Shown here: positions 55,076-58,122 of the stretch, piece by piece
How positions within the stretch are numbered: the stretch's first letter is position 1
Layout of the letters: each line of letters begins with the position of its first letter
Assembly (NCBI GenBank): GCA_034423775.1
Contig: CP139918.1
Coordinates: 2,976,001 to 3,040,000 of the forward strand
Origin: Alphaproteobacteria bacterium US3C007
Lineage (GTDB): Bacteria; Pseudomonadota; Alphaproteobacteria; Rhodobacterales; Rhodobacteraceae
Reading direction: 5' to 3'
DNA: 64,000 nucleotides
Notes under the pieces: model-generated
What the model was told of the DNA's origin: nothing
Seen by the model: only the letters and a program-made list of their open reading frames with translations
Databases searched by the model: none
Program-made: the position numbers and the translations under genes

Positions 55076-56620
55076 ATGGCGGAACTCTCTACAGGTCGGC
55101 GTTCGCGAGGAGGCGGGGGAGCAGCCCGCCGCGCAGAGCGCACCTCCATCAAGATCGAGACTGCAAAATATATTGAACGCAATATCCCGAATTTCGACCT
55201 GTTGAGCGAAGAGGCTTTGGAAATTATTGAAGCCAATGCCGAGCTTATGCTGGAAGAGGTAGGGGTAAACTTTGTTAACAATCCTGCCGCCCTAGAGCGC
55301 TGGCGAGCGGCGGGGGCGAGCGTAGAAGAAGAGCGGGTGCGGATCCCGCGTGGTTTGGCAAAAAAACTATGCGCCACGGCTCCAAACCGGTTCACCCAAC
55401 ATGCTCGGAATTCTGAACGCAATGTTGAGATTGGCGGTAAGTCTTTGGTCTGCGCGCCAGTTTACGGGCCGCCTTTTGTGCGCGACTTAGAAGGTGGGCG
55501 CCGCTATGCAACGATTGATGACTTTAAGAAATTTGTAAAGCTTGGCTATATGTCCAAATGGTTGCATCACTCGGGGGGAACGCTGTGCGAGCCGACCGAT
55601 ATTCCCGTGAACAAACGCCATTTAGATATGCTTCTGGCGCATATGACGCTATCGGATAAACCGTTCATGGGGTCGGTCACCGAGCCCAGCCGCGCGCAAG
55701 ATAGCGTGGATATGTGCAGCATCCTTTTTGGCGATGAGTTTGTGCAGAACAATACGGTGATGACATCCTTGATCAACATCAATTCTCCGATGACATTTGA
55801 TGATGTAATGATGGGTGCGTTAGAGGTTTATGCGCGCAACAATCAAGCCTGCATTATTTCGCCCTTTATTGTTGGCGGCGCGATGGCACCGGTTTCGGTG
55901 GCGGGAACCTTGACGCAGGTCTTGGCTGAAGTCTTGGCGGGTATTGCGTATTCTCAGCTGCTTAAGCCCGGCGCTCCGGTGATTTTTGGCGCTTTTGTGG
56001 CCTCAATTGACATGAATTCTGGCGCTCCCACCTTTGGAACCCCAGAGGCCAGCCATATCCTTTACGGGGCAGGGCAATTGGCGCGACGCCTTGGCTTGCC
56101 TTTCCGCTCCGGCGGGGGGCTCTGCGGGTCTAAACTGCCCGATGCTCAAGCGGCTTATGAAACCTCAAATACGTTAAACGCGGCCTTGATGGGTGGGGTG
56201 AATTTTATGCTCCATTCCTGCGGCTGGTTAGAAGGGGGGCTGGTATCGTCTTTTGAGAAATTTGTAATGGATGCAGATCAATTGGGCGTGTTGCATCATT
56301 TGGCGCGGGGCGTGCAAATTGACGAAGACGCGCAAGCGTTAGACGCAATCCGGGAAGTGGGCCCTGGTGGTCATTACCTTGGATGCGCGCATACGCAGCG
56401 AAACTTTAAGGAATCTTTCTGGCGCAGCGAAGCCTTTGACTATAAGCCTTTCGAAACATGGGAAGAAGAAGGTGCCAAAGATACGATGCAGCTGGCCTCA
56501 ACGCGTGTGGCGACCCTGTTGAACAATTACCGAGAACCCGAAATGGACATCGCGGTAAAGCAAGCTTTGGAGGCGTTTGTAGTGAAGCGTAAATCAGAAA
56601 TGCCGGACAGTTTCGTTTAA
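55076..56620 (+). CDS. MttB-family (non-pyrrolysine) methyltransferase
   Basis: 514-residue member of the trimethylamine methyltransferase (MttB) superfamily without an internal amber codon, so of the non-pyrrolysine branch, in which a glycine betaine:corrinoid methyltransferase is known. Seen: a basic, glycine-rich N-terminal tail (GRRSRGGGGAARRAERT), FDLLSEEALEIIEANAELML, VYGPPFVRDLEGGRRYATIDD, PFIVGGAMAPVSVAGTL, the barrel segment FGTPEASHILYGAGQLAR and GPGGHYLGCAHTQRNF. ATG at 55076 has AAAGG upstream. No corrinoid-protein or reactivase gene is adjacent. Its end overlaps the convergent DUF6477 gene by four bases. Substrate unknown, probably a methylated amine. Confidence 0.83.
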   Translation: MAELSTGRRSRGGGGAARRAERTSIKIETAKYIERNIPNFDLLSEEALEIIEANAELMLEEVGVNFVNNPAALERWRAAGASVEEERVRIPRGLAKKLCATAPNRFTQHARNSERNVEIGGKSLVCAPVYGPPFVRDLEGGRRYATIDDFKKFVKLGYMSKWLHHSGGTLCEPTDIPVNKRHLDMLLAHMTLSDKPFMGSVTEPSRAQDSVDMCSILFGDEFVQNNTVMTSLININSPMTFDDVMMGALEVYARNNQACIISPFIVGGAMAPVSVAGTLTQVLAEVLAGIAYSQLLKPGAPVIFGAFVASIDMNSGAPTFGTPEASHILYGAGQLARRLGLPFRSGGGLCGSKLPDAQAAYETSNTLNAALMGGVNFMLHSCGWLEGGLVSSFEKFVMDADQLGVLHHLARGVQIDEDAQALDAIREVGPGGHYLGCAHTQRNFKESFWRSEAFDYKPFETWEEEGAKDTMQLASTRVATLLNNYREPEMDIAVKQALEAFVVKRKSEMPDSFV

Positions 56621-56904
56621 ATAGGTTGCTTGTCGGCCCTTTCAATTTCTTTTGTTTCGGCAATCAAGGCCGTTAGAACAGTAACGTGCAAGGCTATGTT
56701 ATACTGAACATGCTGCTGCAGGCGCATCTTGTTTAACTGGCCCTCTTTATCGATCAAGGATCTTAAAATCTGTGCTGGATGTTGGTGCATGCTTAGCGCA
56801 AAAAATGAGCTCAAGCATGTGGCCCGGTTGTAGGTTTCAAGGCCCAGCTTTGCTGCATTGATTAGTATTTTTGGCCGTTTGACGCTGTGTAAGTGGAATG
56901 TCAT
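56617..56904 (-). CDS. DUF6477-family protein
   Basis: 95 residues. I recognise the pattern of the Rhodobacterales DUF6477 family: HSVKRPKILINAAKLGLETY (Leu-x-x-x-x-RP-x-x-L-I-x-AA-x-x-G), then LIDKEGQLNKMRLQQHVQY and a terminal ALHVTVLTALIAETK, matching the RHV-x-x-LIAxMxE end. Helical and cytoplasmic; function unknown. It diverges from the DUF6456 regulator gene with 218 bp of A/T-rich DNA between, a pairing that I recall as common in the order. ATG at 56904 has a weak ribosome binding site. Confidence 0.72.
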   Translation of the reverse strand: MTFHLHSVKRPKILINAAKLGLETYNRATCLSSFFALSMHQHPAQILRSLIDKEGQLNKMRLQQHVQYNIALHVTVLTALIAETKEIERADKQPI

Positions 56905-57040: not shown

Positions 57041-57056
57041 TTAAGAAGTCTTTAAC
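57041..57056 (+). promoter_or_regulatory. CtrA-type box upstream of the DUF6456 gene
   Basis: TTAAGAAGTCTTTAAC is an exact match to the alphaproteobacterial CtrA consensus TTAA-N7-TTAAC. It lies 67 bp before the DUF6456 ATG in the divergent spacer, a suitable promoter position. CtrA controls motility, cell cycle or gene-transfer-agent genes in this order. Single-site identification, not tested against background frequency. Confidence 0.6.
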
Positions 57057-57122
57057 AAGTGCAACTTTAAAGTGATATTTTTGTTACTTAGGATTTTAAT
57101 TAAATTTTTCGGATTGTGAAAA

Positions 57123-58122
57123 ATGTCCAATAAACATCCTGCGAGCGGGGGTAAATTAAGCCAAATTTGGCTGGACAAAGCCGCGTTTCATTATGATGCA
57201 CATGTTCACCTGGATTTGTCCATTCGCGCGCTGGCGCGGAAATCTGCTGGTCATGCTTCTACAATTTTAAGGCAGATAAGGCGTATCGAAGCCTTGCAGA
57301 GTGATCCGCAAGTAAAAGCCGCACTGGCTCAGTTAAAATCATCGCGGGGCGAGGGGGCTGATCCTGCGCCTTCCTGCCAGCCGGGTCAAAGTCTTAATAA
57401 GGATGTAATGCACCTTTTAGAACCCAAAAACGCGGTTTTAGTGATGTCCGAAAACGTTGAAATGGCTGGTATATTCTTGATTTCATCAGAATACGCACCT
57501 CAGAAATTAGGGCTTGTGCCGCGCGCGCGCGCAGTCAATGATCGCAAACGGAACGCTGCATTGTGTTTCCGCAGGTCGCTTATCGCGTTATGTTTTAGCA
57601 TCAAATCTGCAGGCTCAAACCGAATGCGCCGAAGCGCCTCATGCCTTTCAGCCGCGCCCCAATCCCGCGCTCGAAACAGAACCCGTTTTCAAAGGATCAC
57701 CGGAAACTCCGTTGATGACGTTGGCTAGACGCCGCAATAAAGATGGTTCATATTTTTTAACGCGCGCATTGGTGGATGCAGGCAACCGGTTTCATGATGA
57801 TTTTGAAATTGCACAGACCGTGCGCCCCGACGGTTTTACCCGTGAGGATTGGTTGCGCTGCGCATCCGGCACTGTGCTTTCAGGGGGCAATGAAAGGCAA
57901 CAACTGCTGATTGAACGGGTGGCGGCCACCTTGCGCGACCTCGGGCCCGAATTATCAGACATTTCGCTACGCTGCTGTTGTTATCTAGACGGTCTTGAGC
58001 TGAGTGAGCAATCTTTAGGCTGGTCGGCGCGTTCGGGTAAAGTCGTCTTGCGCATCGCTTTGCAGCGGCTAAAGCGTTATTATGAAAGCCATATTGGCGT
58101 TGAGAATGGTCGCATAGGTTAA
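57123..58122 (+). pseudogene. DUF6456 HTH regulator gene, frameshifted at a GC tract
   Basis: Two overlapping frames encode the halves of one protein. Frame A (57123-57728) starts with a helix-turn-helix region, LSIRALARKSAGHASTILRQ then IRRIEALQSDP (residues ~34-64). Frame B (usable from 57511, since TAG lies at 57508-57510; ends 58122) carries LSRYVLAS and the DUF6456 core: DAGNRFHDDFE, LRDLGPELSDISLRCCCYLDG, GWSARSGKVVLRIALQRLKRYY. Frame A downstream of ~57530 is not family-like. The switch falls on a (GC)6 run; one more GC unit would restore a ~333-residue protein. Could be a real mutation, phase variation or an assembly error. Confidence 0.75.
57521..57532. repeat. (GC)6 dinucleotide tract at the DUF6456 frameshift
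   Basis: Six tandem GC units inside the coding region, preceded by C at 57520. Slipped-strand gain of one unit (two bases) would join the upstream HTH frame to the downstream DUF6456 frame as LVPRARAQSMIANG. Such tracts are prone to replication slippage and to sequencing error. Confidence 0.8.

Follow-up and report, generated by a model that had tools for sequence, protein, structure and literature searches.

A gafA homologue split at a GC dinucleotide run suggests recent loss of a gene transfer agent in CHAB-I-5 roseobacters

The stretch of the US3C007 genome analysed here (64,000 nucleotides, hereafter the window) contains a regulator gene whose two halves lie in different reading frames, and the question it raises is whether such a gene is a reversible switch, a working pair of proteins, a sequencing error or the remnant of a system that is being lost. 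The lineage of US3C007 is an abundant ocean bacterium. Table 1 of PMC12075776 lists the strain as Candidatus Thalassovivens spotae, of the CHAB-I-5 roseobacters. An initial annotation had put the HTH and DUF6456 halves in different frames, with a TAG at 57508-57510 closing the downstream frame and a (GC)6 run at 57521-57532, and all of this was confirmed. The features of the locus are the following.

57123..57520, + strand: gafA N-half, with the HTH (about residues 8-74) and, from residue 89 to about 133, the front half of the central domain; from the ORF list, an alignment with 33 DUF6456 homologues and the structure that AlphaFold predicts for P0001, a relative of 333 aa
57521..57532, + strand: uninterrupted (GC)6 tract, the site of the frame shift, from the sequence compared with genomes G002, SB2 and G001
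57533..57728, + strand: 64 codons through which the HTH ORF continues out of frame up to its own stop, from the sequence and the ORF list
57538..58122, + strand: gafA C-half, 194 aa when counted from the first ATG in frame, with the remainder of the central domain and DUF6456 (Pfam PF20057, E=5.4e-42)
57052..57065, + strand: possible degenerate relic of a CtrA site, TTAAC-N4-GCAAC, 71 bases 5' of the gafA start codon, from a motif scan
56617..56904, - strand: gene of 95 aa with DUF6477 (Pfam PF20083, E=6.2e-25), divergent from gafA and in the position that rcc01866 has next to R. capsulatus gafA

The HTH frame codes for 201 aa between the ATG at 57123 and its stop codon at 57726-57728, while the DUF6456 frame, limited upstream by the TAG and ended by a TAA at 58120-58122, can start at a TTG at 57514 or an ATG at 57538. 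Its match to PF20057 scores 143.6 bits against a cut-off of 26.3 and is the only occurrence of DUF6456 in the genome (3,622,411 bp, one contig); a Pfam search of the N-half gave no match, to an HTH model or any other. The joined form is found in genome G002, where the orthologue carries (GC)7 in this position and encodes an intact protein of 333 aa, as had been predicted from adding one GC unit to the tract. This orthologue aligns end to end with DUF6456 proteins from Ruegeria and Roseovarius, among others; its identity to the more distant homologues in the alignment, 27 full-length proteins of 331-386 aa, is 38-44%. DUF6456 proteins of this kind are treated as GafA homologues in the literature (PMC9638019; PMC9765227), and the identification rests on comparison with such homologues, the R. 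capsulatus GafA sequence itself not being among them. Based on these alignments, the split gene in the window is a gafA homologue over its whole length, so that the kinship with GafA put forward by the initial annotation is upheld; a sequence search of the PDB found no chain similar to the GafA protein (best E=0.17). GafA of the Rhodobacterales is one continuous chain, which is what G002 encodes and what the split window allele does not. The statement of the initial annotation that R. capsulatus gafA had once been annotated as the two genes rcc01865 and rcc01866 was mistaken, since rcc01866 is described in PMC9638019 as a divergently expressed neighbour and not as the other half. The DUF6477 gene in the window occupies the corresponding position. 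It is fast-evolving (dN/dS 0.34-0.45; 6 synonymous to 13 nonsynonymous differences within species), a rate as if constraint were fading along with that on gafA.

The gene is broken in three of the four genomes of the genus (US3C007, SB2 and G001), each time differently. SB2 (LGRT01000005.1) carries (GC)5 and a split gene, and it matches the window at 99.3% identity across 6997 bp, the tract being the sole gap; here the TGA stop of the N-half overlaps the ATG of the C-half (ATGA). In G001, a metagenome-assembled genome also entered as G062, the tract is interrupted and reads GCGCGCACACGCGTAA (as in the MAG contig JADHOV010000028.1), with an in-frame TAA stop that is followed by TCAATG. The comparison of tract lengths that the initial annotation called for gives seven units in G002, six in the window, five in SB2 and an interrupted, TAA-stopped tract in G001. 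Neither half has acquired further stops in any of the four genomes. Two further mechanisms were considered, programmed frameshifting and slippage of transcription along the GC run, but neither would rescue the nonsense codon of G001.

Metagenomic proteins extend this picture. Proteins in the (GC)6 frame are represented by P0049, with 102 members on contigs of up to 40 kb, and P0044, with 6 members on contigs of up to 508 kb, and those of (GC)5 type by P0121 (101 members) and P0122 (15 members). P0044 reads RALAV, so that its tract is itself interrupted, yet it is out of frame. All 22 intact 333-aa representatives (P0001-P0022) have AHAQS or AKAQS at the tract and none has ARAQS, which means that their GC run is interrupted. 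In-frame ARAQS is found in G002 and the partial protein P0039, and two further in-frame proteins, P0040 and P0127, lack a His or Lys there and read RVRSQ/RVRSK. The gene is thus usually intact where a His or Lys codon interrupts the tract and mostly out of frame where the GC run is unbroken. The member counts, including the 588 of P0001, are unusable as allele frequencies because of the 90% clustering and the C-half fragments possibly included in P0001. It should be noted that an intact gafA is common in the metagenomes of relatives, as the 22 representatives indicate, and the loss is therefore not genus-wide.

The fate of the genes under gafA bears directly on the question. The initial annotation had suggested looking for an RcGTA-like cluster elsewhere in the genome, and a head-tail cluster of RcGTA type is indeed present at 2,595-2,609 kb of the US3C007 contig (G000:C1), although it is not intact. 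The identity of the cluster rests on gene order and on Pfam matches for 12 of its 15 ORFs (the capsid scanned being that of G002), namely terminase, portal, protease, capsid, connector, head completion, tail completion, tail tube, GTA-gp10, DUF2460, Gp84_N/BR0599 and GTA_TIM; Pfam gave nothing for the other three, which by order we take to be g1, g11 and g14, the names g1-g15 being assigned by order after RcGTA. A functional GTA of RcGTA type has an intact head-tail cluster, and in US3C007 the capsid gene g5 carries a nonsense codon (TGG to TAG, L042 8220-8222). In addition, 38 more residues of homology lie in another frame near the 3' end of its g15, a region that three of the six compared relatives reach; this points to a probable 1-base deletion or frameshift, and the missing base adjoins an A run. 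In G002 it is g15 that has a nonsense codon (TGG to TGA, L043 16304-16306). Each of these two nonsense codons (g5, g15) depends on one base in one assembly. SB2 lacks 15.26 kb (L042 2631-17889), the flanks joining on one contig, and G001 (as G062) lacks 12.49 kb (L043 4852-17343), again on one contig. A capsid search found none in SB2 or G001, while cysE was found in all four genomes and the cluster flanks were found too. The structural lesions are therefore different in each of the four genomes, three of which also have a broken gafA. The SB2 deletion also takes a 391-aa gene adjoining the cluster (L042 2632-3807, - strand), and at its junction (L058 1554-1558) the two flank alignments share 5 bases. 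The patterns with which IMG/VR was scanned detected no relative of either the capsid or gafA of CHAB-I-5.

Could the true US3C007 allele be in frame, and its frameshift be an error of sequencing? The genome was assembled with Flye from MinION R9.4.1 reads, as PMC12075776 states, and the base missing from g15 lies beside a homopolymer. Moreover, a second GC tract of US3C007 is one unit short relative to the three other genomes: in a gene that we take from its sequence to encode an ABC-F type ATPase (G000:C1:3596728-3596741; locus L128 301-314), US3C007 has (GC)7 and SB2, G002 and G001 have (GC)8. The frame of the ABC-F gene in US3C007 is broken at this tract, through either another slippage or a mistake in the assembly, and part of the US3C007 signal could accordingly be sequencing error. 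However, the assembly was polished with Illumina reads by Polypolish (PMC12075776), non-identical proteins in the (GC)6 frame (P0049, P0044) occur in other assemblies, and the capsid nonsense codon is a substitution and not an indel. An error in one assembly also leaves the other alleles unexplained, SB2 being off-frame as well, and we consider this explanation unlikely.

The position of the break in the protein speaks to a different possibility, that the two halves work as a pair of proteins, as GafY and GafZ do, with re-initiation supplying both. In the AlphaFold model of P0001, which is 94% identical to the G002 protein (mean pLDDT 80.7, pTM 0.44), the central domain comprises a helix (89-99), three strands (104-109, 114-119 and 127-133), a second helix (134-143) and two further strands (146-150 and 154-159), and residues 91-160 are modelled confidently (10-residue pLDDT means of 86-94). 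The tract encodes the start of the helix at 134-143, so that each half holds part of the central domain. By contrast, the second protein of a two-gene relative (L111, 145 aa then 256 aa) seems, by eye, to begin before the central domain. Two-gene forms of GafA are described in Hyphomicrobiales and Caulobacter (PMC9638019; PMC11150451), and the ATGA overlap in SB2 and the TAA then TCAATG in G001 are stop/start arrangements of the kind that re-initiation would use. In the window, however, the HTH ORF extends about 190 bases beyond the C-half ATG, which makes stop-start coupling impossible for this allele, and the GTA targets of such a pair are deleted in SB2 and G001. Because of where the break falls, a GafYZ-like fission was rejected, and we regard it as highly improbable. 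The central region is where GafA of R. capsulatus, which activates the GTA promoter, is reported to bind RNA polymerase omega (PMC9638019). As the break cuts this region, we infer that neither half would function alone.

Patterns of substitution indicate when constraint was relaxed. Counting synonymous (S) and nonsynonymous (N) differences within species (the US3C007/SB2 and G002/G001 pairs) and between them (between those pairs) and comparing them by Fisher test, the gafA C-half has 9S:13N within and 20S:1N between species (p=0.0002), which argues for strong constraint until recently that was then lost, although the within-species counts are small. The whole gene behaves likewise (15S:19N within vs 42.5S:14.5N between, p=0.006), while no shift is seen in the N-half by itself (6S:6N vs about 22S:14N, p=0.52). 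The neighbouring lipA and mttB together give 25S:8N within and 97S:17N between (p=0.29). Between US3C007 and G002, dN/dS of the GTA genes ranges from 0.05 (g9, g10) to 0.52 (g6), with 0.056 for cysE and 0.038 for ribBA.

The CtrA site upstream of gafA also appears degenerate. The CtrA site is given in PMC6363796 as TTAAC-N6-GTAAC, usually 65-71 bases 5' of the start. Outside the genus 21 loci were parsed, and 15 of them have a site with at most one mismatch close to the start (of 31 loci scanned, 2 belong to the genus and 8 without an ORF by the motif used were left out). In the 200-300 bases scanned upstream of gafA in the four genomes there is no N6 site with at most one mismatch; at the expected spacing these genomes have N6 sites with two to three mismatches. 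The best N6 site before gafA in US3C007 has two mismatches and lies at -82, whereas the TTAAC-N4-GCAAC of the four genomes, which in G002 reads TTAAT-N4-GCAAC, is at -71. Across the family, DUF6456 and GTA_TIM occur together: among 37 genomes with the same family label (G000-G036, counted by hand, five of them less than 90% complete), 29 have both, 4 neither, 3 DUF6456 alone and 1 GTA_TIM alone (p=0.0025). In another genus of the family, a TAA lies within the DUF6456 domain (L002, G005:C1:1653940-1654353) and another in one of two GTA_TIM copies; this is possibly another decaying GTA.

The initial annotation had raised the prospect of phase-variable GTA production, in which slippage of the GC tract would reversibly toggle gafA, and hence the GTA, in part of the population. 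Repeat-length variants do occur in close relatives, with three tract lengths (5, 6 and 7), and the off allele P0122 shares its first 133 residues identically with the on allele of G002. (GC)6 itself is not rare (14 distinct tracts of at least 6 units in the US3C007 genome). Nor are GC runs generally labile: among the other tracts of at least 6 units listed for the four genomes, an indel occurred in 3 of 59 orthologue pairs, all at one tract (1 of 11 for US3C007/SB2 and 0 of 15 for G002/G001). For SB2 this comparison covers the 13 tracts listed, and it misses orthologues with fewer than 6 units; in a few orthologue pairs the number of units changed by substitution only. GC runs are usually stable here, which counts in favor of a switch. 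The GTA genes under gafA are, however, broken or gone in all four genomes, constraint on the C-half has been lost within species, the break in G001 is a nonsense codon that involves no slip, and the tracts of the 22 intact representatives are interrupted, the reverse of what a maintained switch would show. The prospect was thus not borne out, and we think it very doubtful. A related and improbable hypothesis is a switch at the level of populations, in which, in CHAB-I-5 with intact GTA genes, an unbroken (GC)7 gafA would slip and silence self-lysing GTA production heritably and reversibly, the present genomes being dead ends after a switch-off.

We propose instead that gafA was inactivated by slippage in its GC run as part of a recurrent recent loss of the GTA system in this lineage, a reading that we consider probable and that corresponds to the recent loss named among the options of the initial annotation. 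The particle genes, broken or deleted in all four genomes, favor recent loss of the whole system over an on/off switch. In this mechanism, the direct activator of a gene transfer agent of RcGTA type would be disabled by slippage in a GC dinucleotide run, the uninterrupted run acting as a mutational trap and the weak point of the activator, and the system would be lost piecemeal. Either the activator may have been lost first, the silent structural genes then decaying, or the order may have been the reverse. Running counter to this are the intact gafA of G002 despite its broken g15, the halves being free of extra stops, and the constraint on the N-half, which is not significantly lost.

GTAs are retained although the producing cells die, and the reason for their persistence is debated. 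Four CHAB-I-5 genomes with different activator and structural lesions, together with the intact gafA of related populations, make regulator-first and structural-first loss testable against each other. A split DUF6456 annotation, moreover, does not necessarily signal a GafY/GafZ pair or a switch. A search of the literature on CHAB-I-5 and gene transfer agents gave no title or abstract opening that describes GTA decay in this group; the terms 'gene transfer' and 'GTA' are absent from the main text of PMC12075776, and 'gene transfer agent' and 'GTA' from PMC12661815.

The system may finally be set beside those that are known. With GafA of Rhodobacter capsulatus and its Rhodobacterales homologues it shares the HTH, central domain and DUF6456 in one chain (333 aa in G002) and, with the former, a small divergent gene adjoining it. 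It differs from the homologues in that the gene is shorter than in most family members (stop-to-stop frames in the family are mostly 363-447 aa, with exceptions of 245-260 and 562), contains an unbroken GC run, is broken in three of the four genomes of the genus and is preceded by what may be a degenerate CtrA site. Like GafY and GafZ of Caulobacter crescentus, the two polypeptides match the N- and C-terminal parts of GafA, but the break here is a recent frameshift or nonsense mutation inside the central domain, away from the natural boundary. A further parallel is the RCA cluster, pelagic roseobacters for which no complete GTA is reported in PMC10675870. Both are pelagic roseobacters losing a GTA, whereas CHAB-I-5 shows four distinct structural lesions in one genus and lesions of the activator as well.
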